A stretch of DNA of 64,000 nt from Rhodococcus sp. ARC_M6. Its GTDB lineage: Bacteria > Actinomycetota > Actinomycetes > Mycobacteriales > Mycobacteriaceae. The stretch is taken from the NCBI RefSeq assembly GCF_022810305.1, contig NZ_JALGQH010000003.1:62001-126000 (forward strand), in the 5' to 3' direction. Made by a program: the position numbers and the translations under genes. The notes beneath the pieces are model-generated. The model searched no databases and was not told where the DNA came from. It saw only the letters and a program-made list of their open reading frames with translations. How positions within the stretch are numbered: the first letter of the stretch is position 1; each line of letters starts with the position of its first letter. Positions 2,328-48,159 of the stretch are shown here, piece by piece.

Positions 2328-3083
2328 GTGAAGAAGTTCAAGCCGTCTGTGGCGCAACTGATCCCGGATCTGACGCCGGCGGAACAGATTGTCGTTCTTG
2401 CCCGTGCACTGTGGAATGAGGGTTATCGGGATCATCTCGCCGGACACATCACATACAACCTCGGAGACGGCACCATGTTGTGCAATCCGTGGCTTCTGAC
2501 CTGGGAGGAGATTCTCCCGGCCGACATCATCCGCATCGATCTGGACGGCAAGGTCCTTGAAGGTGATTGGCCTGTTCCCTTGGGGATTCCGCTGCATCTT
2601 GCACTGCACCGAGCGCGGCCGGATGTGGGTATCGCGTTGCACAATCATTCCGAATTCGGCACGGTCTGGGCAGATTTGGGCGAGGTTCCACCAGCCTACG
2701 ATCAGAGTTCGAGCCTCGGTGGCGGTGAAGTGGTCCTCGTCGACGAATACGAAGGTGCCGTCGACAGCATGGCTGCGGCTGAATCCGCGATACGGTCGAT
2801 CGGTCAGGCTGATCGGGCACTTCTCGCCGGGCATGGCGTCTTCGTAACCGGGAGCACTGCCGCGGCTGTCTACCTCCGAGCGGTCGCACTCGAACAGCGT
2901 TGCAAGAACGCCTGGATGATTCGAGTAGCCGACGGGCCGTCGAAGACATCGTTGCCCAATTGGTGGCTCGATCGTATGGCCGGAAGTGACGGCAACAGCT
3001 ACTACGGGTTCTGGGAATCGGCAGTGCGGGCCGTCCTGCGTTCCGACCCTGAGCTTTTCGAAAGCATCGAATCGTGCAACTGA
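2328..3083 (+). CDS. Class II aldolase/adducin-family protein
   Basis: A 251-residue protein with the class II aldolase fold: SxxxxGNxx-like region HLAGHITYNL, the metal-binding pair in ALHNHSEFGT, and GHGVFVTGSTAAAV toward the C-terminus carrying the third His. The family includes Zn-dependent sugar-phosphate aldolases, decarboxylases and dehydratases. GTG 2328 is preferred over GTG 2289 because GAGAGG sits 5 bases before it. It is the first gene of the operon that continues into two acyl-CoA dehydrogenases. It may cleave or rearrange the pathway substrate, but the actual reaction is unknown. Confidence 0.82.
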   Translation: MKKFKPSVAQLIPDLTPAEQIVVLARALWNEGYRDHLAGHITYNLGDGTMLCNPWLLTWEEILPADIIRIDLDGKVLEGDWPVPLGIPLHLALHRARPDVGIALHNHSEFGTVWADLGEVPPAYDQSSSLGGGEVVLVDEYEGAVDSMAAAESAIRSIGQADRALLAGHGVFVTGSTAAAVYLRAVALEQRCKNAWMIRVADGPSKTSLPNWWLDRMAGSDGNSYYGFWESAVRAVLRSDPELFESIESCN

Positions 3084-3128
3084 GGGCAAGGCGCTCTGCC
3101 ATCAACAGTGGAATCGGAACGGATGATC

Positions 3129-4307
3129 ATGGACTTTGAACTCGACGCGAGCCAACGAGCCTGGCGTGAAGAGGTACGCGCATTTCTCGCTGAGAACGTC
3201 ACGTCGGAACTACGTGCGGAGATGGTCGAACACGATCTCGAGTTCATTGGCGGAGAACTCACTGCATTCCGCCGAAAGATCGGAGCCAAGGGATGGTTCG
3301 GACTGAACTGGCCTGAGGAATTCGGCGGACTCGGGCTGGGAGCGGTTTACCAGCATCTGTTGGTCAGCGAATTCGAGTACTGGGGTGTGCCGGGCCCTGA
3401 TCTGACGGTCACCTCCGTGGCTCCGATGATCATGCGTCACGGCACTCGGCAGAATCGGGAGGAGTTCCTTCCACCTATCGCTCGAGGCGAGTTGACCTGC
3501 GCAGTCGGGTATTCCGAACCGAATGCGGGTACCGACCTGGCGAGTTTGAAGACACGGGCAGTACGTGAGGGTGACGAGTGGGTGATCAACGGTTCCAAGA
3601 TCTGGAACAGTATGGCGCAGCGCGTCACTCACGAATGGCTGTGTGTCCGTACCAATACCGAAGTGCCCAAGCACAAGGGAATTTCGGTGATCATCGTACC
3701 GATCGATGCGCCGGGCATCGTGATTCGTCCGATCACGGCATGGTCCGGATATCGAACCAACGAGACGTTTTTCGACAACGTCCGTGTCCCCGTGACGAAC
3801 TTGATCGGTGAGGTCGACAAGGGCTGGAAGTACATCACCGGCGCATTGGACCTGGAGCGAGGTGCACTCACCAATGCGGGCGACCTCCGACGAGCGGTCG
3901 ACGATCTGTTGATTCTCTCCCGCGAGATCCGTGAGGACGGAACGCGACCCGTCGACAGCGCAGACATACGACGCAAACTTGCGCAGTTGGACGCCGATGT
4001 CGAACTCGCACAGCTCATGGGTTTCGAAGCTTCGTCACTGTTGGAAAGCGGAACTATTCCGTCGGTGCTCGTGAGCACGGAGAAGGTGTTCTCCAGTGAG
4101 CTCAGACAAAGGATCGCTGACATCGGAACGTCGATGCTCGGTTCAGCCGGGTTGATTGCGGGTTCCGATTCGAATGCCGTGATGGCGGGTAAGTTCGAGC
4201 GTTTGTACCGCGCTGCCCCATTGCTTCGATTCGGCGCCGGCGCAAACGAGGTTCTGCGAGACGTCATAGCGCAGCGCGGACACGGCCTGCCGAGTTACGG
4301 ACGCTGA
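3129..4307 (+). CDS. Acyl-CoA dehydrogenase, FadE26-like (subunit A)
   Basis: A 392-residue flavoprotein with the acyl-CoA dehydrogenase N, middle and C domains. GYSEPNAGTDLASLKT is the conserved FAD/substrate motif and FGAGANEVLRDVIAQRGHGLP ends the protein as in FadE26-type sterol enzymes. ATG 3129 is chosen; GGAACGG lies 6 bases before it, and GTG 3108 and ATG 3123 are alternatives. It is followed 39 bases on by a second, divergent acyl-CoA dehydrogenase. Actinobacterial steroid enzymes of this kind are alpha2-beta2 heterotetramers made of two unlike subunits (established for ChsE1-ChsE2 and FadE26-FadE27), so this pair is inferred to do the same for a bulky acyl-CoA. Confidence 0.88.
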   Translation: MDFELDASQRAWREEVRAFLAENVTSELRAEMVEHDLEFIGGELTAFRRKIGAKGWFGLNWPEEFGGLGLGAVYQHLLVSEFEYWGVPGPDLTVTSVAPMIMRHGTRQNREEFLPPIARGELTCAVGYSEPNAGTDLASLKTRAVREGDEWVINGSKIWNSMAQRVTHEWLCVRTNTEVPKHKGISVIIVPIDAPGIVIRPITAWSGYRTNETFFDNVRVPVTNLIGEVDKGWKYITGALDLERGALTNAGDLRRAVDDLLILSREIREDGTRPVDSADIRRKLAQLDADVELAQLMGFEASSLLESGTIPSVLVSTEKVFSSELRQRIADIGTSMLGSAGLIAGSDSNAVMAGKFERLYRAAPLLRFGAGANEVLRDVIAQRGHGLPSYGR

Positions 4308-4346
4308 CATGACCTTGACATTCCTCGACCGCGTAGGAGATCGCTG

Positions 4347-5489
4347 ATGAAACTTGTTGCTACCCAAGACGAACTCGATCTGCAGACGATGGTGAGCGCG
4401 GTACTGGCAAAACAATGTCCGATCAGCCTGGTGCGTGAATTGGCCAAACCGGCGTCGGATGGGATTCCCGACAAGTTGATGGCGGCGCTGGCAGAGGTCG
4501 GTGTACTCGGTGTGGCGGTTGACGAAGAGTACGGCGGTGGCGGTGCGGGGTTGTACGAGCTCGGCGTGTTCTTCCGCGAAGGCGGCCGGGTTCTGTGCCC
4601 GTCAATCGTCTACAGCACATTGCAATTCGGTGTAGCCGTCGGCCGTCTGGCCTCACCGGAGCAACGCAGCCGGTATCTGTCCGGTGTGGCCGGCGGCGAA
4701 CTTCGGGCCACCGTCGCGGCCTGGAATCCGTCCGATGCAGCGGATATCCGTCCCACCGTAACGGCAACGCCGGCTCCGGGTGGATGGCTACTCAACGGCG
4801 CTATCGCCTTTGCCTTGAATACCTCGATCGCGGACGTGGTTCTGTTGACCGCTCGTACGACGGTGTTTGCCGAACCCGAGCGACTGATCGGCGCCTTCGT
4901 AAACCCGGCCGACGCGGGCTGGAACAGTGTCATGCTCTCGACAATGTCCGGCGAGAAGGTCAGTCGTGTTGAACTGGTCGATGTCTTTGTACCGGACGAC
5001 GCGGTTTCTCTCGGCGAGAGTGGGAATGGGCTGAGCCGCGACGACGTCCGGTGGGTTGCGGATGCGGCGGTTGCTCTGCAATGCATGGAGATGGTGGGGG
5101 GTGCCGCCGCAGTCTTGGAACGGACGGTGAACTACGTCGCCCAGCGCGAGCAGTTCGGGCGATCAATCGGCAGTTTTCAAGCCGCGCAACACATTATCGC
5201 GGATATACACATTCTGATAGAAGGCGCCCGGTTGGCGGCTACGCAGGCGGTCTGGTGGACTGCCCGCGGAGAATCGGCCACACGTGCAGTTGCAATCGCA
5301 AAAATGCACTGCAACGAAGCGTACAAGCGTGCGACGCTCGACGGTCATCAGTTGCACGGCGGAATGGGGTATGTCCTCGAGACTGACCTGCATCTGTGGT
5401 CCGAGCGAGCAAAGGTTACGGAAATACGTTTCGGCACAGCTGATATCGCTGCCACCTGGTTGCAGAAGGAGCTTGGTCTTGTCCCATGA
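4347..5489 (+). CDS. Acyl-CoA dehydrogenase, FadE27/29-like (subunit B)
   Basis: A 380-residue acyl-CoA dehydrogenase starting at ATG 4347 after a good AGGAGA ribosome site. It has the C-terminal helical motif REQFGRSIGSFQAAQHIIADIH and HQLHGGMGYVLETDLHLWSERAK, the usual end of the second subunit in steroid-type heteromeric dehydrogenases. The N-terminal half is less conserved than in the neighbour. It overlaps the next gene by 11 bases, so the genes are co-translated. It probably forms a complex with the 3129-4307 product and introduces the alpha,beta double bond in an acyl-CoA of unknown structure. Confidence 0.87.
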   Translation: MKLVATQDELDLQTMVSAVLAKQCPISLVRELAKPASDGIPDKLMAALAEVGVLGVAVDEEYGGGGAGLYELGVFFREGGRVLCPSIVYSTLQFGVAVGRLASPEQRSRYLSGVAGGELRATVAAWNPSDAADIRPTVTATPAPGGWLLNGAIAFALNTSIADVVLLTARTTVFAEPERLIGAFVNPADAGWNSVMLSTMSGEKVSRVELVDVFVPDDAVSLGESGNGLSRDDVRWVADAAVALQCMEMVGGAAAVLERTVNYVAQREQFGRSIGSFQAAQHIIADIHILIEGARLAATQAVWWTARGESATRAVAIAKMHCNEAYKRATLDGHQLHGGMGYVLETDLHLWSERAKVTEIRFGTADIAATWLQKELGLVP

Positions 5490-6690
5490 ATCGCACGCGG
5501 AATCACGTCAGGCTCTCCAAGACCTGCGAATCCTGGATCTTTCTCGGTGGGTAGCTGGTGAGTACGCCACAAAGATGTTTGCCGACTTCGGTGCGGACGT
5601 GGTGAAGATCGAAAAGCCTGGCACCGGAAGCCTGACACGGTCGTGGGGGCCTTTCCCTGGAGATGTCCCCGATCCGGAACGAAGCGCTCTCTTCCTTCAT
5701 CTGAACACCAACAAGAAGTCTCTGGCTCTGGATCTGGAATCGGACTCGGACCGCGAGGTACTGCTGGGCCTCGTCGAAACTGCCGACGCAGTTGTGGAGT
5801 CCTTTCGGCCGGGTCACCTGGAGATGCTGGGCCTGGGCCCGGATGTGTTGCAGGCGAGAAACCCTCGTTTGGTGATCACACGAATCAGTGCATTCGGTCA
5901 GACTGGGCCGTACCGGGATCGTGAAGCGACAGGATTGGTTCTTCAAGCTGCCGGTGGGCCGATGAACGCGACCGGCGGAGCGGATCGTGCCCCGTTGCGA
6001 AAGCCTGGTCTGCTCGAGCACTACACGATCGGCCGTACCGCCGGAGAGGCCACGATGGCAGGGCTGTTCAGTGCGCGGCGTACTGGCGGGGGATCGGTGA
6101 TCGACGTATCCGGTCAGGAGGTTCTGCTCGCGGGAGCGGATCGTCGAGCGTCGTATCTGGTGTCTGCGGCCTATTCCGGCATGAATGCCCCGCGCGGAGT
6201 CCGTAGTCCGCATCGGCACGGCGTGACTTTCACCGGACCGTTCCGGGCCAGTGACGGTTTCGTGATGCTGTACGTGACCAATCAGGCCTTCTGGAATCGG
6301 CTGGTCGACATCGTGGGCGAGCATGATCGTGAATTTCATTCGCGCTATCACGGGCGCGAAACGATTGTCGGTACCGATCGTGAGGAGTTCATGGACTACG
6401 TCATCGAGTGGTTTGCGGTGCGCCCGAAGGTGGCGATCATGGAGCGGTGTGAAGCGGCGCGTATCCCCGTCACTGCGTATCTCGACGTCTCGGAACTGCT
6501 TCGCCACGAGCATTTTCGTAGCCGGGATGCATTCGTTCGTGGTTCGCATCCTGTTGCCGGCACGTTGGACTACACCGGAGCGCCGTGGCGGATGGCCAAC
6601 GGGTTCCGGTTGCGCCACACCGCGCCGACACTCGACCAACATGGGCCAGAGATCCGTGAGTCTCTCACGACTGCAGGAGGATCCGAATGA
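5479..6690 (+). CDS. Type III (CaiB/BaiF) CoA-transferase, first of pair
   Basis: A 403-residue family III CoA-transferase: LRILDLSRWVAGEYATKMFADFGADVVKIE at the N-terminus and ITRISAFGQTGPY in the middle are diagnostic. The TTG start at 5479 is chosen because AAGGAG lies 7 bases upstream; it overlaps the dehydrogenase gene by 11 bases. The segment where the catalytic Asp is normally found, just before the small Gly/Ala helix, reads LLEHYTIGRTAGEA (about residues 178-191) with no obvious Asp. The next gene, a paralogue, keeps one at the matching place. It may therefore be a non-acylated partner subunit. Expected role: moving CoA onto the pathway acid. Confidence 0.85.
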   Translation: MSHESHAESRQALQDLRILDLSRWVAGEYATKMFADFGADVVKIEKPGTGSLTRSWGPFPGDVPDPERSALFLHLNTNKKSLALDLESDSDREVLLGLVETADAVVESFRPGHLEMLGLGPDVLQARNPRLVITRISAFGQTGPYRDREATGLVLQAAGGPMNATGGADRAPLRKPGLLEHYTIGRTAGEATMAGLFSARRTGGGSVIDVSGQEVLLAGADRRASYLVSAAYSGMNAPRGVRSPHRHGVTFTGPFRASDGFVMLYVTNQAFWNRLVDIVGEHDREFHSRYHGRETIVGTDREEFMDYVIEWFAVRPKVAIMERCEAARIPVTAYLDVSELLRHEHFRSRDAFVRGSHPVAGTLDYTGAPWRMANGFRLRHTAPTLDQHGPEIRESLTTAGGSE

Positions 6691-7958
6691 ACTACCCACT
6701 CGAAGGTATCCGCGTCGTGGACTTGACCGTCGTATGGTCGGGTCCGGGGGCGACCGCGTTGTTGGGCGACCTGGGTGCGGAAGTGATTCGCCTCGAAGGG
6801 AACAATCGGGTCAGCAGGCAGGTCTCGGCGAAGACTACGAAGGAGTCGATCGCGCAGACCGGCTACCACGGTGGCACATATCCGGACAAAGATCCCGGCG
6901 AGCGGCCTTACGACCGTACTGCGCTGTTCAACTGGCATTCCCGGAACAAACTGTCGGCGTGTATGAACCTCGACACCGAGGGAGGTCACGCTGCGGCGAT
7001 CGAGCTGATCAAAGTCAGTGACGTTCTGGTGGAGAATAATTCGAACGGCACGTTGGAGAAGTTGGGGCTGGGACACGAGCGCCTGCTCGAGATCAATCCA
7101 CGGTTGATCGTCGCTCGAATGCCTCCGCTCGGTATGACCGGTCCGATGAGTGATTACCTCGGTTACGGGCCCAACTTCAACTCGCTGGTAGGCATAGCGG
7201 CGATGGACGGTTACGAGGGTGAGGAGCCGGATTCGGCCGGAGAGAACTACCACATGGACGAGGCGGCGCCGGCGGGGCTGGCCTTCGCCGTGATGGCGGC
7301 GCTCTGGGATCGGGAGCACACGGGCGTCGGTGGTCTTGTCGAGTTCGCACAAGCTGAAAATGTCATGGCGGAGATCGGTGAGTTCGTACTCGACGCACAG
7401 GTCAACGACAGAATTCCGGAGATACTCGGAAATACGGATCCCCATGTGCTGCAGGATGTTTTCCTCAGTGCGGACGACGATGTCTGGGTTGCGATCTCCG
7501 TACGAGACGATCGGGACTGGGCGGCGTTGGCAGGAGTGATCGGTGGCGACGGTTTCGCCGCGTCCGGTTCGGATGCTTCCGTCCGACATTCGAATTCAGT
7601 GAGTATCCGGGATCGCATTTCTCGATGGACTCGCGAGTTGAGCGCGGACAGTATCGTTCGTGATCTGCAAGAGTTGGGAATCCCTTCGGGCATGGTCATG
7701 AACGAGTGCGCCGTACTTGCAGATCCTCACCTCCGCGAACGTGAGTGGTTCCAGGAACGATCACATCCCGCGGTGGGAACCCATCGTTATCCGGGACATC
7801 CCTGGCGGGCTGAGGGATTCGATGTGGCTTTCGGCCGAGTGCTTCCGGGATTCGGTGAGGACAACGAGTACGTCTACAAGGAGATTCTCGGATACTCCGA
7901 CGAGAAGTATGCCGAACTCGAGGATTCCGGACTGGTAACCGATCATCAAATAGCTTGA
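6687..7958 (+). CDS. Type III (CaiB/BaiF) CoA-transferase, second of pair
   Basis: A 423-residue family III CoA-transferase overlapping its neighbour by 4 bases (ATGA). N-terminal IRVVDLTVVWSGPGATALLGDLGAEVIRLE and the RLIVARMPPLGMTGPMSDY segment define the family. Here a likely catalytic Asp is present in YHMDEAAPAGLAF (Asp191), in contrast to the upstream paralogue. Two type III transferases in tandem inside a beta-oxidation operon suggest either a heterodimer or two acids activated in sequence. Donor and acceptor are not predictable from sequence. Confidence 0.86.
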   Translation: MNYPLEGIRVVDLTVVWSGPGATALLGDLGAEVIRLEGNNRVSRQVSAKTTKESIAQTGYHGGTYPDKDPGERPYDRTALFNWHSRNKLSACMNLDTEGGHAAAIELIKVSDVLVENNSNGTLEKLGLGHERLLEINPRLIVARMPPLGMTGPMSDYLGYGPNFNSLVGIAAMDGYEGEEPDSAGENYHMDEAAPAGLAFAVMAALWDREHTGVGGLVEFAQAENVMAEIGEFVLDAQVNDRIPEILGNTDPHVLQDVFLSADDDVWVAISVRDDRDWAALAGVIGGDGFAASGSDASVRHSNSVSIRDRISRWTRELSADSIVRDLQELGIPSGMVMNECAVLADPHLREREWFQERSHPAVGTHRYPGHPWRAEGFDVAFGRVLPGFGEDNEYVYKEILGYSDEKYAELEDSGLVTDHQIA

Positions 7959-7970
7959 GAGAGAACGACT

Positions 7971-8495
7971 ATGACTGAAAATATGATCTTGATTCCCGAC
8001 TCGGAATCTCTGGTTCCCGATGAAGTCGCAGCGCGAATCGGGGATGTTGTCTCCGAGGTCACCGGTGCCGTCGTCGCCCGGGATTGGCAACGGTGGGCTG
8101 TGTCCGTCGGTGAGACCAACCTGTTGTACTTCGACGGTGGCTATGCTCGCGCCCACGGGTATCGCGATATCGTCTGTCCTCCACTGTATCTGCAGTACGC
8201 GATCCTCGGGGTGACTCCGATTTCGGAGCTCAGAGTGGATGGATCTTCCGGTGCAGCCTCCGGAAATCTGGTTTTCCCATTGTGCCCCAAACGTATGGCA
8301 GGAGGAGAGAACACCACGTTCTTCGGACCAGGCTATGACGGCGACGTGGTCACCAGCGTGCGCGTCGTGGACTCGGTGGAGGAGAAGCGTGGACGGTCCG
8401 GCCGGTTCGTGCTGGTGACCTGGAAAACCATCTATACAAATCAGAACGACGAGGTGCTGGCCGAGGCCACCACCTCGATGATCGCGCGTCCGTAG
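7971..8495 (+). CDS. FAS1-like/MaoC-type hydratase subunit (N-terminal hot-dog type)
   Basis: A 174-residue single hot-dog protein of the FAS1-like dehydratase N-terminal type. It has DVVCPPLYLQYAIL-like sequence in its first half and AGGENTTFFGPGYDGDVVTS, the usual region that packs against a catalytic MaoC partner. It lacks the catalytic N/H pair, which is carried by the next gene. Separate small subunits forming a heteromeric enoyl-CoA hydratase are known for steroid degradation (ChsH1-ChsH2), and this pair is inferred to act the same way, hydrating the product of the dehydrogenase pair. Confidence 0.78.
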   Translation: MTENMILIPDSESLVPDEVAARIGDVVSEVTGAVVARDWQRWAVSVGETNLLYFDGGYARAHGYRDIVCPPLYLQYAILGVTPISELRVDGSSGAASGNLVFPLCPKRMAGGENTTFFGPGYDGDVVTSVRVVDSVEEKRGRSGRFVLVTWKTIYTNQNDEVLAEATTSMIARP

Positions 8496-8505
8496 CGAGG
8501 GAGAG

Positions 8506-8970
8506 ATGGCAGTCATGTCACCGCAGGTGTATTTCGACGACGTAGCGACCGGCGATTCGATCCCGGTTCTACACGTGAGCGTCAACCAATTGCAGATGTT
8601 CCTCTTCAGTGCAGCCACATACAACGGGCACCGAATCCACTACGACCGTAGCTGGGCTGTAGACGTCGAGGGGTATCGGGACGTTGTTGTGCAGGGGCCG
8701 CTCCAAGCGGCGCTGCTTGCCCGGGTCGTCACAGACTGGATCGGTGGCGCTGGATCGTTGGTGAACTTCTCGGCATCCAACCGGGCCGTTGCTTTCCCCG
8801 GGGAACCGTTGGAGTTCACGGGTACCGTGACCGGCAAGCGCAACGAGAACGGAAGGGCGCTGGTCGATCTGGAGCTCGCGGGTGTACGTGAAGGCTCGGT
8901 CCTGATGCCGGGAACGGCGACTGTGTGTTTGCCTCGTAGACCCGAATTTCCGTCGATGGGAGTTTCCTGA
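8506..8970 (+). CDS. MaoC-like enoyl-CoA hydratase, catalytic subunit
   Basis: A 154-residue MaoC/HTD2-type hot-dog protein. TYNGHRIHYDRSWA (Asn40, His42, His45) is the active-site signature seen in mesaconyl-CoA and related hydratases, and VVVQGPLQAALL forms the following helix. ATG 8506 follows a GAGGGAGAG ribosome site and the stop codon overlaps the next start by one base. Together with the preceding hot-dog gene it should add water across the double bond of a bulky enoyl-CoA, giving the beta-hydroxyacyl-CoA that a thiolase-fold lyase could split. Confidence 0.82.
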   Translation: MAVMSPQVYFDDVATGDSIPVLHVSVNQLQMFLFSAATYNGHRIHYDRSWAVDVEGYRDVVVQGPLQAALLARVVTDWIGGAGSLVNFSASNRAVAFPGEPLEFTGTVTGKRNENGRALVDLELAGVREGSVLMPGTATVCLPRRPEFPSMGVS

Positions 8971-10172
8971 TGGCCGGTCTGCGCGGTGAGGCTGCGATCG
9001 TCGGATTCTGTGAATTGCCGGCGCAACGTAAGCAGACTCGACCGGAACAGTTCACGATCGAGCAGTGGGCGATGCTTTCCAAAATGGCGATCGACGATGC
9101 CGGGCTCGAGGCATCGCAGATCAACGGTCTTGTCACACACGGGATTGCGGAATCCGAGATGTTTGCTCCGGCCACGCTCTCCGAGTATCTCGGAATTCCG
9201 CTGAATTTCGGTGAACGCGTCGACCTCGGTGGTGCCACGGCCGCCGGAATGGTGTGGCGCGCTGCAGCTGCCGTCGAATTGGGTATCTGCGACGCGGTGT
9301 TGGTCATCGTTCCAGGCTCGTTCATGACCCCGAAATCTCGAATTCAGCCTGCTGTGGATCCGGGGTACCTCGGCGCCTCGAGCGGCAAGTTCGGTTCTCC
9401 TCAAGCGGAATTCGAGATTCCGTACGGCAATCTCGGTCAGAACGCGCCATACGCGCAGATTGCTCAGCGGTATGCCGCGGAATTCGGGTATGACGAGCGA
9501 GCTACCGCAAAGATCGCGGTGGACCAGCGGACCAATGCCTGCGCTACCCCCGGCGCCGCGTTCCACGGAAAGCCGATCACCATCGAAGACGTGTTGGCGA
9601 GTCCGATGATTGCAGACCCCATTCGGATGCTCGAAGTGGTCATGCGCGTCCAGGGCGGGGCAGGTGTCGTTGTCGCCAATGCGGATATTGCACGCCGTGG
9701 TCGCAATCGGCCGGTCTGGATCAAGGGATTCGGTGAGCACGTGTCCTTCAAGACGCCGACTTACGCAGAAGACATGGTGCGGACGCCCATTGCGAAGGCC
9801 GCAAATACTGCGTTCGACATGGCCGGTATCTCACGTTCGGCAGTGGATATGGCGTCGATCTACGACTGCTACACGATCACGGTAGTGATGAGCCTCGAGG
9901 ACGCGGGCTTCTGTGAGAAGGGGAAGGGTATGGAGTGGGTGTCTTCGCGGGACCTGACCTTCCGTGGTGACTTCCCGCTGAATACGGCCGGCGGCCAATT
10001 GTCCTTCGGGCAAGCCGGAATGGCTGGTGGAATGCATCATGTGTGCGACGGTGTCCGTCAGTTGATGGGTAGGTCCGGTGACGCACAGGTCGACGACTGC
10101 AATACCGCTTTCGTCACCGGCAACGGCGGCATCATGAGTGAACAAGTTGCGTTGATCCTCCAAGGAGATTAG
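8970..10172 (+). CDS. Thiolase-fold lipid-transfer-type protein, probable aldolase
   Basis: A 400-residue protein of the SCP-x/Ltp thiolase-like family, starting at ATG 8970 with a one-base overlap. It keeps the thiolase fold segments (VDLGGATAAGMVWRA at 84-98, NTAGGQLSFGQAGMAGG at 338-354) but where degradative thiolases have the nucleophilic Cys it has Gly-Ala-Thr (88-90). It has the YDCYT motif at 298-302. In Ltp2, a steroid retro-aldolase, Cys catalysis is also lost, Tyr residues act instead, and a DUF35 partner is needed; a DUF35 gene follows here directly. It is therefore inferred to cleave a beta-hydroxyacyl-CoA rather than thiolyse a ketoacyl-CoA. Confidence 0.82.
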   Translation: MAGLRGEAAIVGFCELPAQRKQTRPEQFTIEQWAMLSKMAIDDAGLEASQINGLVTHGIAESEMFAPATLSEYLGIPLNFGERVDLGGATAAGMVWRAAAAVELGICDAVLVIVPGSFMTPKSRIQPAVDPGYLGASSGKFGSPQAEFEIPYGNLGQNAPYAQIAQRYAAEFGYDERATAKIAVDQRTNACATPGAAFHGKPITIEDVLASPMIADPIRMLEVVMRVQGGAGVVVANADIARRGRNRPVWIKGFGEHVSFKTPTYAEDMVRTPIAKAANTAFDMAGISRSAVDMASIYDCYTITVVMSLEDAGFCEKGKGMEWVSSRDLTFRGDFPLNTAGGQLSFGQAGMAGGMHHVCDGVRQLMGRSGDAQVDDCNTAFVTGNGGIMSEQVALILQGD

Positions 10173-10174
10173 TG

Positions 10175-10591
10175 ATGTCGATCGAAAAGCCGTTTCCGGA
10201 ACCGACGCCCGTTTCTGCTCCGTTCTGGGATGCGTTGCGAGAGAGAAAGATCAAAATTCAGTATTCGCCGTCTTCGGAAGAGTTTGTGTTCTACCCGCGT
10301 GTTTTGGCCCCCCGTACGCTGGCTGACGACCTCGAATGGAGTGAAATCAGCGGGATGGGCACGCTGTATACCTACACGGTTACAGACCGTCCGACAGCGC
10401 CGCCGTGGTCGGATTCGTTGCCACAATTCCTGGCGGTTGTGCAGTGGGACGAGGGTCCACGGTTCAGTACCGAATTGGTGGATGTCGGTGACGTGGAACT
10501 GAGCGTAGGTATGCGCGTGGAACCCGTATTTTGTGACTATCCGGAGCGGGACATCACGCTGCTTCGATATCGGCCGGTTGCGGCGGCGTGA
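10175..10591 (+). CDS. DUF35 OB-fold protein, probable aldolase partner
   Basis: A 138-residue DUF35 (acyl-CoA-associated OB-fold) protein. ATG 10175 is chosen over GTG 10172 because AAGGAG stands 7 bases before it. The N-terminal helix plus ribbon (FWDALRERKIKIQYSPSSEEFVFYPR) is present, but the cysteines of the usual Zn ribbon are replaced (SPSSEE). The OB part has GTLYTYTVTDRP and VGMRVEPVF. DUF35 proteins bind thiolase-fold enzymes and are required by Ltp2-type aldolases. Its position directly after such a gene supports a complex. Confidence 0.83.
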   Translation: MSIEKPFPEPTPVSAPFWDALRERKIKIQYSPSSEEFVFYPRVLAPRTLADDLEWSEISGMGTLYTYTVTDRPTAPPWSDSLPQFLAVVQWDEGPRFSTELVDVGDVELSVGMRVEPVFCDYPERDITLLRYRPVAAA

Positions 10592-10599
10592 GTGTCGAT

Positions 10600-11253
10600 T
10601 CAGTTGTCGTGCTTGCGAAGCTCGTTCGGTGTCAGTGGTTTCGGCTTCTTCCGTCGTGCGCGCCCCGCTGAGGACTTATCCATGGCGAGTCGGGACATGT
10701 TCTCCAACATCCAGTTTGCGCGATCTCGCTCGGATTCGTAGTACATTTCCGACCAACGCAATACGAGTTCTGGATAGGCCCAGCCGGGCTCTTCGGAAGC
10801 GCCTTCAGCATCAGCGATGGCGCGTATTCGCATCTTCTCCGCTTGGTCTCGATGCTCGGTGAGAGCGGATTGCAACTTGTCCGGGTCTGCTAGATGACCG
10901 AGCCACATTCGAAGCATGACACCGTGTTTGAGTACAGCGGGTTCGACGGGGGATTCGTTCGCCCACAGCGCCGCAGCATCGGTTCCAGCCGGTGTGATTT
11001 TGTAGAGTCGCTTACTTTTGACGTCGTTGGTACTCACGACGCGCGATGTTGCAAAGCCGTGCGCTTCGAGGCTTTTGAGTTCGCTGTAGATCTGACTGTA
11101 CGACGGAGCCCAGTAGAAGAATCGAAGGCTCCAGTCTGCCCACTTCTTGAGGTCGTATCCCGAAAGTTCGGATCCGAAGGACAACAGACCGAGAACAGCC
11201 CAACTCGTGGGTCTCAGGGAGGGCACATCCGTGGGCGTTTCGTCCTTGGCCAT
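10600..11253 (-). CDS. PadR-family transcriptional regulator
   Basis: A 217-residue PadR regulator: N-terminal winged helix with SWAVLGLLSFGSELSGYDLKKWAD and SYSQIYSELKSLEAHGFATSR, then a Vir_act_alpha_C-type helical dimerisation domain, and a basic tail (RARRKKPKPL). It converges with the DUF35 gene, ending 8 bases from it, and is divergent from the acyl-CoA synthetase gene over a 69-base A/T-richer intergenic region that includes the short palindrome AAATATTT at 11300-11307. It probably represses the synthetase gene and itself, a common PadR arrangement. Effector unknown. Confidence 0.88.
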   Translation of the reverse strand: MAKDETPTDVPSLRPTSWAVLGLLSFGSELSGYDLKKWADWSLRFFYWAPSYSQIYSELKSLEAHGFATSRVVSTNDVKSKRLYKITPAGTDAAALWANESPVEPAVLKHGVMLRMWLGHLADPDKLQSALTEHRDQAEKMRIRAIADAEGASEEPGWAYPELVLRWSEMYYESERDRANWMLENMSRLAMDKSSAGRARRKKPKPLTPNELRKHDN

Positions 11254-11322
11254 GATCGAAGAATACCCGTCGGTAGGCTATTGCAAGTAGTTCTGTTAGA
11301 AATATTTTGAAAAGGACTATTA

Positions 11323-12867
11323 GTGCAGATGCGGGGAAACCGCTCACCGGGAGGTCCATCGAATCCTGCACCGAGTGAATGCTTGAATGCAGACATGCAG
11401 CGTGATTTTCCCGCGCGGACGCTCGACGAGCTCTGCTTGGTCTTGGCGGAGCGGTACCGAGACCGGGTGGCTTTGCTCGACGGCCACCGGGAAATCACTT
11501 ACGGCGAACTTGCAGACCACGCCTTACGAGTTGCGTCCGTGCTCGCGAATTCAGGTGTGCAACCGGGAGATCGTGTGGTTCTCACCGGCCGGAACTCCAT
11601 GGATTGGGTCTGCATAGCCCTGGGGATCCTCTGCGCCGGTGCAACAGTCGTTCCCATCGGGCATGGTGTCAGCGGCATGGAGTCCTCCCGAATTCTGGAT
11701 GTCACAGTTCCGGCGTTGGTCATCGACGACTCCCGGATCGTGGACATCATGCGCTCTGCGAAAATCACACCGCCTCGAGTCGGCCGGCCGTTTGCCGAGC
11801 ACGACGATGTGGCTCTGATTCTGTCCACGTCTGGTTCGACGGGTGCGTCCAAACAGGTTCCCATGACCCACGGACAGTTGACACGGTTGTACTCCGCAGT
11901 CGCAGACAGGCTCGGGTTGACGAGTGCGGATCGTGTGATCGGTGCCGTCCCGTTTGCCCATTCGTTCGGATTCAACGGAGTGCTGTTGACTGCAATGGCT
12001 GCTGGAGCATCAGTCCGGGTGGTCGAGCAGTACGACCGATCAGACCTCGCCGATGTCATAGTCCGCGACAGAGTCAGTGTGATGATGGGTCCGCCGACCA
12101 TTCTGTTCGATCTCGTGAACAGTGGAAGGGAGGACATCGGAACGGTATGCCGGATGGCAGTGAGCGGGGGTTCCGAGGTTCCGCTCGATCGCATGCGAGC
12201 AGCCTGCCGGGAGCTCGGTATCGCAAGCATGTTTGTCGGCTACGGACTTACCGAAGCATGCGGAACCGTCGCTATCGGCAGCATTGTCGAGGGTGGGTCG
12301 GGTTCGCTCGCGATGCTGACTCCCATTGACGGCCTTGATATCCGGATTGTCGACGATTACGGCTACCCACTCCCGCCGGATGTCGACGGTCACGTTCTCT
12401 GCTCCGGCTACAACGTCATGCCCGGCTACCTCGAAGCGGGCGAAGTCGCGGAATCGACGATCGACAACACTGTGGACGGCGACGGATGGTTACGGACCGG
12501 AGACATCGGCTGGACGGATGACGACGGACATCTCTATGTCGTTTCGCGTGCCAAAGACATGGTGATCGTCAGCGGGTTCAACGTGTACCCACAAGAAGTC
12601 GAGACGGTCTTGTTGCAGCATCCCCTGATCCTCGAAGCTGTCGTGATCGGAGTGGCCGACGAACGTCAGGGCCAACGACTTGTCGCGTGCGTGATTCCGA
12701 TTCCCCGCCGCCGCGTCGATTCCGATGATCTGATCGATTTTTGCCGTGAACGATTGAACGCGTACAAGGTGCCGCGTGTCTACGTCGAATTGGAAATGCT
12801 GCCGAGAACGCACACCGGGAAACAGTCTCGAGAAGAGCTTCGGAAGCAGATTTCGGAACGGCTCTGA
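11323..12867 (+). CDS. AMP-forming acyl-CoA synthetase (FadD-like)
   Basis: A 514-residue ANL-superfamily ligase with ATP motif LSTSGSTGASKQVP (a variant of the usual TSGTTG), A8-type VGYGLTEACGTV, adenylate motif WLRTGDIGW and the C-terminal catalytic Lys region RTHTGKQSREEL. The GTG at 11323 has AAAGGA 6 bases upstream; ATG 11395 would remove a poorly conserved 24-residue leader and is a reasonable alternative. It likely activates the free acid that enters the 2.3-10.6 kb operon, as an ATP-dependent route beside the CoA-transferases. Regulation by the divergent PadR protein is inferred. Confidence 0.87.
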   Translation: MQMRGNRSPGGPSNPAPSECLNADMQRDFPARTLDELCLVLAERYRDRVALLDGHREITYGELADHALRVASVLANSGVQPGDRVVLTGRNSMDWVCIALGILCAGATVVPIGHGVSGMESSRILDVTVPALVIDDSRIVDIMRSAKITPPRVGRPFAEHDDVALILSTSGSTGASKQVPMTHGQLTRLYSAVADRLGLTSADRVIGAVPFAHSFGFNGVLLTAMAAGASVRVVEQYDRSDLADVIVRDRVSVMMGPPTILFDLVNSGREDIGTVCRMAVSGGSEVPLDRMRAACRELGIASMFVGYGLTEACGTVAIGSIVEGGSGSLAMLTPIDGLDIRIVDDYGYPLPPDVDGHVLCSGYNVMPGYLEAGEVAESTIDNTVDGDGWLRTGDIGWTDDDGHLYVVSRAKDMVIVSGFNVYPQEVETVLLQHPLILEAVVIGVADERQGQRLVACVIPIPRRRVDSDDLIDFCRERLNAYKVPRVYVELEMLPRTHTGKQSREELRKQISERL

Positions 12868-14652: not shown

Positions 14653-15267
14653 ATGATGAGTGCTGATGTGCCGGATATGCGCTCCGTGATCATCAGGGCA
14701 GCGGCCGACGCTTTTGCTGCCGACGGCTACGCCTCGACCACGATCGACGATCTGGCAGACCGCATCGGCGCTACCAAAGGTCTTGTCTATTACCACTTTC
14801 GGTCGAAGTTCGACATCTACCTTGCAGTTTTCGAGCACGGTATGAACCGGCTCCGGGCCGAGATCGACGAGGAAGTGAGTGCGGGGGGAACCGGACTCGA
14901 GCGGCTTCAAGCTATGTCGCGGGCGCATCTGATCAATCTGATGACTCATCTCGGCCATCATCACGCGATCCATCAAGGCGTGCGCGGGCAGATGAGTTCG
15001 GCGCTCAAACCGCGGCAGCGGCAGGCGCTGGTGGAGTTGAATGCTCTCCGACTCGACTACGAGAACCTGTTCGAAGAGGTCATGGCTGAAGGTGTCGCGG
15101 ACGGTTCAGTTCAGGTGTCGTCGCCGCGAATGGCCGCAAAAGTCCTGCTCAGCAGCCTCAATGGCGTCGACCTCTGGTATCGGCATCGCGAAGGTCAGGC
15201 GCTCGCAGAAACCGAGGCGCTGGCCGACGAGATCGTGGAGTTGTTGATCGGAGGCCTACGCGCCTGA
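14653..15267 (+). CDS. TetR-family transcriptional regulator
   Basis: A 204-residue TetR regulator. The N-terminal helix-turn-helix is clear: RSVIIRAAADAFAADGYAST, TTIDDLADRIGATKGLVYYHF and SKFDIYLAVFEHG, within the first 60 residues. The C-terminal half is an all-helical ligand domain. ATG 14653 is directly followed by another ATG (14656); either is possible. It is divergent from the SDR gene with an inverted repeat between them, so control of that gene is likely. TetR proteins of this type in actinobacteria often respond to acyl-CoA esters. Confidence 0.88.
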   Translation: MMSADVPDMRSVIIRAAADAFAADGYASTTIDDLADRIGATKGLVYYHFRSKFDIYLAVFEHGMNRLRAEIDEEVSAGGTGLERLQAMSRAHLINLMTHLGHHHAIHQGVRGQMSSALKPRQRQALVELNALRLDYENLFEEVMAEGVADGSVQVSSPRMAAKVLLSSLNGVDLWYRHREGQALAETEALADEIVELLIGGLRA

Positions 15268-46927: not shown

Positions 46928-48109
46928 TTATCGCTTTGAGGGCGGCAAGCCCAGGGCCGTCATGCCGATGATGTCGCGCTGCACTTCGTTGGTTCCGCCA
47001 CCGAAGGTCAGGATCAAAGCGGAGCGATGCATGCGTTCGATTCGTCCACGCAGAAGCGCGCCGGGGGAGTTCTGTCGGATCACCGCGGAAGATCCGAGGA
47101 TTTCCATCAGCAAACGGTAAGCCTCGGTAGCGAATTCGGTGCCGAAGACCTTGTTGGCCGACGCCGCCTCAGGTCCGGGCGAATGGTCGGTCATCGACGC
47201 GATTTCCCAGTTCATGAGCTTGAGGTACTCGGCCTTGGCGTGGACGCGTGCCAGATTGATCTGCACCCATTCCTGATCGATCATCCGTCGGCCGTCGGGC
47301 AGCTTGGTGTTCTGTGCCCACTCCCGGACCTCACGCTGAGCAGTCAGAATCGGACCGGCAGAGGTGAGTGCGACGCGTTCGTGGTTGAGCTGATTGGTGA
47401 TCAGGCCCCAGCCGCCGTGTTCCTGACCGACGATCGACGACGCCGGAACACGTACGTCCTGGTAGTAGGTGGCGCTAGTGTCGGGTCCGGCCATCGTGTG
47501 GACCGGGGTGTACGAGAAGCCTTCGGCGGTGGTCGGGACGATCAGCATGCTGATTCCCTTGTGCTTCTTGGCTTCCTGGTCCGTGCGGCACGCGAGCCAG
47601 ATGTAATCCGCGTACTGGATGAGGCTGGTCCACATTTTCTGGCCGTTGATGATGTAGTCGTCGCCGTCCTTGACTGCGGACGTGCGCAGCGACGCCAGGT
47701 CTGTGCCGGCGCCGGGTTCGGAGTATCCGATCGCGAAATGCAGTTCGCCGCGCGAGATCTTGGGAAGGAAGAAATCCTTCTGCTCTTGTGTGCCGAAGTG
47801 CATGATTGTCGGTGCCACGGAGTTGATCGTCAGGAAGGGCACCGGAGCGCCGGCAATGGCCGCTTCGTCGGTGAAGATCAGCTGATCCATCGCGGAGCGT
47901 TCCTGCCCGCCGTATTCCTTGGGCCAGCCGAGCGTGAGCCAGCCGTCCTGCCCCATCTGTGCGACAACCTCGCGGTAGACGTTGCCTTCGCCGTACTCGC
48001 CGGTGGTTGCGGCGAGAGCCTCGCGGCGAGCCGGTGTCATCAGTTTGGCGAAGTAGGCACGTAACTCCTCCTGAAGCGCTTGTTGCTCAGGGGTGTAGGT
48101 GATGTGCAT
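46928..48109 (-). CDS. fadE26: Acyl-CoA dehydrogenase FadE26
   Basis: A 393-residue acyl-CoA dehydrogenase of the FadE26 family with GYSEPGAGTDLASLRT, KMWTSLIQYADYIWLACRT and the C-terminal FGGGTNEVQRDIIGMTALGLP. ATG 48109 is chosen with GGAGAGG at 6 bases. It is the first gene of the fadE26-fadE27-fadD17 operon and is divergent from fdxD, with KstR-like boxes between. With FadE27 it inserts the first double bond into the sterol side-chain CoA ester. Confidence 0.92.
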   Translation of the reverse strand: MHITYTPEQQALQEELRAYFAKLMTPARREALAATTGEYGEGNVYREVVAQMGQDGWLTLGWPKEYGGQERSAMDQLIFTDEAAIAGAPVPFLTINSVAPTIMHFGTQEQKDFFLPKISRGELHFAIGYSEPGAGTDLASLRTSAVKDGDDYIINGQKMWTSLIQYADYIWLACRTDQEAKKHKGISMLIVPTTAEGFSYTPVHTMAGPDTSATYYQDVRVPASSIVGQEHGGWGLITNQLNHERVALTSAGPILTAQREVREWAQNTKLPDGRRMIDQEWVQINLARVHAKAEYLKLMNWEIASMTDHSPGPEAASANKVFGTEFATEAYRLLMEILGSSAVIRQNSPGALLRGRIERMHRSALILTFGGGTNEVQRDIIGMTALGLPPSKR

Positions 48110-48145
48110 TGTTGCCTCTCCGGTCGAGATACAAATCGTTTGTTT

Positions 48146-48159
48146 TGACACAAGTTCTA
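48146..48159. promoter_or_regulatory. KstR-like operator (fadE26 side)
   Basis: TGACACAAGTTCTA has a good right half (GTTCTA) and one mismatch in the left half. It lies 37 bases before the fadE26 start on the minus strand. Confidence 0.6.

Follow-up and report, generated by a model that had tools for sequence, protein, structure and literature searches.

A run of nine consecutive plus-strand genes in Rhodococcus sp. ARC_M6 (positions 2328-10591 of a 64,000-nucleotide stretch of contig NZ_JALGQH010000003.1, hereafter the window) is predicted to encode a KstR-independent set of enzymes that would desaturate a bulky acyl-CoA, probably one resembling a steroid-24-oyl-CoA, hydrate it and remove two carbons from it by a retro-aldol cut. 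We give this reading as a whole an even chance; we stand by the mechanism, with no more than moderate commitment to the kind of substrate. The intergenic gaps are at most about 45 nt or are replaced by small overlaps (some starts are estimated), and on the 3' side the run is followed by a PadR gene on the opposite strand and then by a ligase gene:

2328-3083, plus: class II aldolase/adducin family protein (Pfam Aldolase_II, 122.7 bits)
3126-4307, plus: Acd1, acyl-CoA dehydrogenase subunit with catalytic Glu244
4347-5489, plus: Acd2, acyl-CoA dehydrogenase partner without the catalytic Glu
5482-6690, plus: Cot1, type III CoA-transferase without the catalytic Asp (Pfam; start approximate)
6687-7958, plus: Cot2, type III CoA-transferase with Asp191
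7971-8495, plus: Mao1, FAS1_DH/MaoC-N subunit, catalytic His lost (Pfam, 64 bits)
8506-8970, plus: Mao2, MaoC subunit with Asn40/His45
8970-10172, plus: thiolase-fold protein, assigned by clade and residues (Tyr298, Cys300, Gln343, Gln348, Gln157, Gly387) as a Sal-type retro-aldolase
10172-10591, plus: stand-alone DUF35 partner without zinc cysteines (best match 9MYR_B, 111.5 bits)
10600-11253, minus: PadR-family regulator (Pfam)
11323-12867, plus: AMP-forming acyl-CoA ligase, possibly linked (Pfam)

The protein families that a sequence-only reading of the same DNA had named (a class II aldolase, two dehydrogenases, two CoA-transferases, two hot-dog proteins, a thiolase fold, DUF35, a ligase, and IclR and PadR regulators) were borne out by Pfam; the MaoC-type hot-dog protein scored 25.7 bits, just under the Pfam cut-off of 27 bits.

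Assignment of the aldolase and its DUF35 partner

The best solved match of the thiolase-fold protein was 9MYR_A (456 bits, the runner-up reaching 182), from the structure cited for the Sal-ShyDUF35 complex of Comamonas testosteroni (PMC12329534), and it is 53% identical to the aldolase of that complex, CtSal, over 403 columns. The identities were 63-68% to a second actinobacterial group (group B) and 62% to a protein of Rhodococcus DMU1, in comparison to 29-32% to Ltp2 proteins. In a tree of 29 rows, two of which are long-branched, the window protein clustered with CtSal and a Vibrio plasmid protein with support of 100/99, the Ltp2 proteins falling outside, and an actinobacterial group supported at 96/93 comprised group A, to which the window protein belongs, group B and the DMU1 protein.

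The YDCY motif was found in 83 of 83 sequences, across which Tyr298, Cys300, Gln343, Gln348, Gln157 and Gly387 are invariant. Cys300, within the motif, aligns with the catalytic Cys304 of Sal, a Gly occupies the position of the nucleophilic Cys, and a Tyr stands where the HDCF motif has His. In CtSal, mutations have shown Tyr302 and Cys304 of the YDCY motif to be catalytic, Gln347 and Gln352 may activate the Cys, and Gln161 and Gly391 were proposed as the oxyanion hole, while Ltp2 works with YDHF and a second Tyr (PMC12329534). The motif, the Gln pair, the Gly at the nucleophile position, the place in the CtSal clade and the adjacent DUF35 gene of the Sal (YDCY) aldolases are all found in the window, and the protein has neither the YDHF motif nor the clade position of Ltp2 and igr; by these comparisons the protein is of the C5-chain (Sal) type and not of the C3-chain (Ltp2) type. 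Two other identities were rejected, that of a thiolase by the loss of the nucleophile and that of an Ltp2/igr equivalent by motif, tree and domain architecture. The protein had previously been described as a Cys-less, Ltp-type lyase: the nucleophilic Cys is indeed absent, but Cys300 of YDCY is invariant, and the family name is wrong if Ltp2 was meant.

The ARC_M6 genome holds four other matches to the aldolase, with the motifs YDHF (two), YDCF and YDAF and none with YDCY, and its three Ltp2-type genes were 100, 69 and 67% identical to an igr-type query (YDHF, YDHF and YDAF, respectively). The proposal of a distinct aldolytic acyl-CoA set, outside KstR control and providing its own CoA activation alongside these three Ltp2-type genes, was supported. 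The paralogue with the motif YDCF (33%; L108, on contig C11 of this genome) adjoins a DUF35-like open reading frame (ORF) that by eye contains cysteines; the trypanosome SLP protein has been reported to carry the same YDCF pattern (PMC12329534). Distant YDCY proteins (44 and 42%) were also seen on Mesorhizobium and Sulfitobacter plasmids (L142 and L143), where the neighbours, an acetoacetate-CoA ligase, a zinc-ribbon protein, a MaoC protein, a class II aldolase and a sugar importer, point to another pathway.

The DUF35 partner is free-standing, the window having three separate genes and not the fusion of DUF35 with a single MaoC domain known as Shy. In 79 of 79 group-A DUF35 proteins the positions of Cys31, Cys44 and Cys47 of CtShy are taken by Ser32, Ala46 (Thr in 5) and Thr49 (Ser or Asn in 12), none of the 79 has any Cys in residues 28-52, and the position aligned with the zinc His is His in 2 of them; the Cys3His1 zinc site of the proteobacterial Sal-Shy subtype is absent from the window protein. 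The corresponding stretch is also without Cys in L140 and in the group-B loci L144-L147, and the Vibrio DUF35 and most of the more distant relatives listed retain cysteines there. The beta2-alpha2 loop of the aldolase is two residues shorter than that of CtSal, with His59 gone and an equal length in 83 of 83 sequences, and the short loop without His59 recurs in DMU1 and in the group-B rows of the tree (L144-L146). In CtSal, the DUF35 zinc finger is described as pushing this loop into the pocket, a flat ring was modelled to clash with His59, and the efficiency of the enzyme drops about 260-fold with a cholesterol-type ester (PMC12329534). Losing both the zinc site and the His59 loop would make room in the pocket for the flat ring systems against which CtSal discriminates.

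Predicted pairs of active and silent subunits

At three steps, though less clearly for the hydratase, the residue comparisons indicate that a subunit bearing catalytic residues would pair with one that has lost them. The helix-G Glu244 of Acd1 was found in 76 of 76 sequences, and Acd2 has no Glu at either catalytic column (75 rows), which is the alpha2beta2 pattern of the ChsE type, with one Glu-bearing subunit and one without; Acd1 is 39% identical to the FadE26-like protein encoded at 46928-48151, and its best solved match is 4X28_A. For the hydratase, His45 was present in 83 of 83 Mao2 sequences in comparison to none of 82 for Mao1, in which Trp, Tyr or Phe takes the His position in all 82. 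Mao2 carries Asn40 where the canonical His/Asp dyad has Asp, and its best solved match is an itaconyl-CoA hydratase. The catalytic residue of the formyl-CoA transferase family is Asp169, and Asp191 of Cot2 (15 of 15) maps to about position 167-170 of formyl-CoA transferase profiles, while Cot1 has a Gly aligned with it and no aligned acid in the five loci compared. This is the one-Asp pattern of type III CoA-transferase pairs, as in the BbsEF pair, where one subunit has the Asp and the other lacks it. The benzylsuccinate CoA-transferase BbsEF (9FN0) is likewise made of two adjacent type III subunits, to both chains of which Cot1 matches; Cot1 matches other type III enzymes slightly better, and the run has no Bbs-type dehydrogenase pair.

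The closest known systems each share part of this design. The igr operon (ChsE1/E2-ChsH1/H2-Ltp2) belongs to the KstR regulon and has the same order of chemistry, a heteromeric dehydrogenase and hydratase and a DUF35 partner; unlike in the window, its aldolase has YDHF and lies outside the Sal clade and its DUF35 is fused to ChsH2, and the earlier equation of the run with this operon was not supported, the window aldolase being of the Sal type and its DUF35 free-standing. Sal-Shy (9MYR; PMC12329534, PMC11321319) shares YDCY, the Gln pair, the oxyanion Gln/Gly and the DUF35 partner, and differs in having a single-MaoC hydratase where the window has two subunits, besides the differences in DUF35, loop and Arg216 (Pro in the window). 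In the HBC operon of Mycolicibacterium neoaurum, kstR3-chsH4-atf1-chsE6, atf1 acts on sterols in vivo and a stand-alone DUF35 adjoins a Sal-like aldolase, but the genes described for it include KstR3 and a single dehydrogenase and lack a hydratase pair, CoA-transferases and a ligase (PMC10398937). Its arrangement differs from the window gene order and agrees with the group-B operon L145 (TetR-DUF35-aldolase-dehydrogenase), on whose gene content, and not on a named sequence, the equation of group B with Atf1 is based. To speak of an undescribed pathway was too strong at the family level, because Atf1-ChsH4, a clade relative, has been described and published work mentions YDCY homologues among Actinobacteria that degrade cholesterol; as for this operon itself, no description was found in a literature search whose coverage excluded most subscription journals.

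Proposed mechanism

Gene order, residues, clade and synteny are read from the sequence, and from them we infer the following steps. A bulky acid would be imported by an ABC system and charged with CoA by Cot1/Cot2 or by the ligase. The acyl-CoA would be desaturated by an Acd1-Acd2 heteromer in which Acd1 is active, and the enoyl product hydrated by a Mao1-Mao2 heteromer in which Mao2 is active. Sal, on DUF35, would then cleave the chain, with Tyr298 as the base on the beta-hydroxyl and Cys300 as the acid on the acyl-CoA enolate, to give acetyl-CoA and an aldehyde (or ketone), leaving the acyl chain two carbons shorter. The lyase had been expected to release a small carbonyl compound; on this scheme the small product would instead be acetyl-CoA (or propionyl-CoA) and the carbonyl would be the bulky part. 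In an extended version, which we think rather unlikely as a whole, Actinobacteria would have in this one locus a self-contained aldolytic route, independent of KstR, that takes up a flat polycyclic acid, such as a plant triterpenoid or steroid acid, loads it with CoA, desaturates and hydrates it and cleaves it, with three active/silent heteromers feeding a Sal on a DUF35 that gave up its zinc, opening the pocket, and with a monooxygenase and a hydrolase trimming the released carbonyl in mycobacteria.

Conservation in other genomes

A scan of a genome collection kept 80 of 326 loci, 59 of them full-length; most are from related mycobacteria, so the counts are not independent. The arrangement goes beyond chance: the genes of a six-gene core stand in one order in Mycobacterium, Nocardioides, Amycolatopsis and Rhodococcus, and the five partner genes of the aldolase occur in 56 to 59 of the 59 full-length loci (acd1 58, acd2 56, mao1 59, mao2 59, duf35 58). 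CoA-transferases were found in 10 of these loci and a FadD1-type ligase in 50, with at least one of the two in all 59. The class II aldolase adjoins the core in L027, L028, L139, L156, L220 and L223 and in only 2 of the 80 collection loci, and the AMP-forming ligase, with a relative (44%) in L069, is present in 3 of the 80.

Matches at E values of 1e-120 or below were obtained in 5 of the 28 genomes searched in the genus of the window and in 67 of the 401 genomes sampled in the family, groups A and B taken together, and in 15 genomes of g32, a genus that contig matches place among the mycobacteria, two matches were obtained per genome, which by score represent one group each. The R. qingshengii locus L139 combines a divergent IclR gene, a class II aldolase, a 2-hydroxyacid-dehydrogenase-like gene, an importer, the core, two short-chain dehydrogenase/reductase (SDR) genes and a gene similar to Baeyer-Villiger monooxygenases (BVMO-like). 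This cluster lies on a 145-kb plasmid of strain 190158 that is typed as mobilizable (MOBP).

Regulation

No KstR-type box (TNNAACNNGTTNNA) was found in 1-23 kb, in comparison to four at 23124-48257 (0.40 expected in the whole window). The run thus lies outside the sterol regulon, as had been proposed, though the first box is only about 12.5 kb downstream of it. Across the 80 collection loci the motif was scattered in 7, with no fixed place. Control is likely exerted by IclR and PadR and not by KstR. The IclR gene is divergent from the aldolase gene also in L027, L028, L139, L156, L220 and L223, and a PadR gene likewise follows duf35 in L027, L028, L069, L093 and L097. The features concerned are:

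1478-2200, minus: IclR-family regulator (Pfam HTH_IclR and IclR_C; start uncertain)
2227-2241, between the IclR and aldolase genes: dyad TGATAC-ACA-GTATCG, candidate operator

The pattern GATAYNCAGTATC was exact only in L001 (the window site), L028 and L139 among 228 loci, and L027 has a one-base variant. The perfect dyad GATAC-ACA-GTATC is identical in R. globerulus L028, and its left half is altered on the R. qingshengii plasmid.

Substrate and alternative explanations

A steroid-24-oyl-like substrate is predicted from the relationship of the aldolase to Sal and Atf1 and from neighbouring genes. A 1056-residue ORF that lies 7.5-10.7 kb to the left of the window (L005:8341-11511, contig C85) combines a CasG-type ligase domain with an acyl-CoA carboxyltransferase domain, and the ligase scored 839 bits in comparison to the NCBI steroid-24-oyl-CoA synthetase cut-off of 750; relatives of this ligase lie close to the cluster in L233-L236, from four further genomes, and in the Nocardioides loci L040 and L048. 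The core-adjacent ligase of L046 (13256-14875) and of similar mycobacterial loci is FadD1 by the NCBI cut-off (959 in comparison to 800) and a distant relative of FadD17 (566 bits) and CasI (506 bits), both under their cut-offs. M. tuberculosis retains fadD1 as Rv1750c, and the literature search gave no paper on FadD1/Rv1750c. A cytochrome P450 of L104 is 62% identical to the one in the sterol-type region of the window, which we take to be CYP125, and P450s of that group occur in 14 of the 80 collection loci. All 17 group-A carrier genomes tested, small genomes included, have a KshA_C-domain protein together with an Ltp2 relative that is at least 65% identical; this comparison could speak only against a steroid substrate, because strain P1Y, which has no cluster, and genome G573, which has group B only, have both proteins too.

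Several observations weigh against the steroid reading, besides the presence of both proteins in P1Y and G573. The CasG-like gene lies beyond the window and could have another role, and the genome has two stronger CasG matches elsewhere. The run shows no KstR control, and Arg216, a CoA contact of CtSal, is Pro212 in the window aldolase, whose predicted structure was of low confidence (mean predicted local distance difference test score 49, from 16 rows). BVMO-like genes in 50 and alpha/beta-hydrolase genes in 45 of the 59 full-length loci also count against it, because a plain side-chain step needs neither.

Those genes would find a use if the same aldolytic chemistry had a substrate other than a steroid, namely an alicyclic or isoprenoid acid of the kind formed by monoterpenoid ring opening or similar to abscisic acid. 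The neighbouring monooxygenase and hydrolase would then open a ring or trim the ketone product. We regard this explanation as possible but doubtful. It is favoured by the near absence of BVMO-like genes from 19 other Ltp-type loci in other genomes (one BVMO-like match at 23% identity, none above), by the SDR genes of mycofactocin-coupled type beside the core in L139, L029 and L220, and by R. globerulus NBRC 14531, which carries the whole cluster (L028) and has 98.75% average nucleotide identity to R. globerulus AX7B, a strain that grows on abscisic acid. Dehydrovomifoliol and rhodococcal acid are products expected of such chemistry; a Baeyer-Villiger step has been suggested for the latter by authors who call the abscisic-acid enzymes unresolved. 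Against it, the ligases linked to the core are steroid-type enzymes or close to that type, and the abscisic-acid degrader P1Y has no orthologue (best matches 32-36%), by which abscisic acid was rejected as a general substrate and survives only within this explanation. Abscisic acid already has a double bond, so its first cut would need no acyl-CoA dehydrogenase. A Sal-type site has also been argued to be perhaps too tight for a tertiary hydroxyl and a branched alpha carbon (PMC12329534). No literature was found on jasmonate as a substrate, and no gene-level link to MlhB or monoterpene lactone in the literature within reach of the search. P1Y itself has other Ltp/DUF35-like genes (L216) near an SBP_5-like binding protein, a CoA-transferase and a ligase, which are possible candidates for an abscisic acid route.

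Another explanation, improbable in our view, is that the run takes the part of Atf1-ChsH4 in this genome and makes C22 steroids on a branch off the normal degradation of sterol (cholesterol, phytosterol) side chains. Group B is the nearest group with an operon-level function in print, sterol-type genes stand on the same contig, and the absence of YDCY from the other four aldolase matches of the genome agrees with this; but the 15 g32 genomes hold one match of each group, and the run, unlike the HBC operon, has its own dehydrogenase, hydratase and CoA-activation genes and no KstR box. A thiolytic, benzylsuccinate-like beta-oxidation (Bbs) route is very improbable: the paired type III CoA-transferases, one without Asp, do stand beside a thiolase-fold/DUF35 pair, and there is a weak match to BbsB (86 bits in comparison to 750), yet Gly replaces the nucleophilic Cys and Tyr the HDCF His, and Pfam found no hydroxyacyl-CoA dehydrogenase in the nine-gene run.

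Flanking genes

Before the divergent IclR gene stand a cupin-like ORF (by eye, with no Pfam match) and an ABC importer of the SBP_5 type, for which Pfam matched a binding protein, one permease and one ATPase in L005. The importer directly precedes acd1 in L029, L030, L032 and L139 and is near it in L222. The remaining features are:

42-746, plus: last ATPase of the upstream SBP_5-type ABC importer, likely linked (judged from the other importer genes)
14653-15267: TetR-like ORF (judged by eye only)

From about 30 to 60 kb, the window has genes that we read as sterol-type (by eye, FadD17 scan and P450 comparison); the sterol-type region at 23124-60000 has P450, FadE26/27-, FadD17- and mce-like genes, mostly recognized by eye, and the FadD17 scan gave 626 bits, under the cut-off of 850.

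Significance

The locus offers a complete operon and a testable structural switch, namely a DUF35 without zinc cysteines together with an aldolase that has lost the His59 loop. The candidate route that it represents occurs in several Rhodococcus and many Mycobacterium genomes. Industry uses C22 steroids as starting materials, so an aldolase that prefers a different ring type could be useful.

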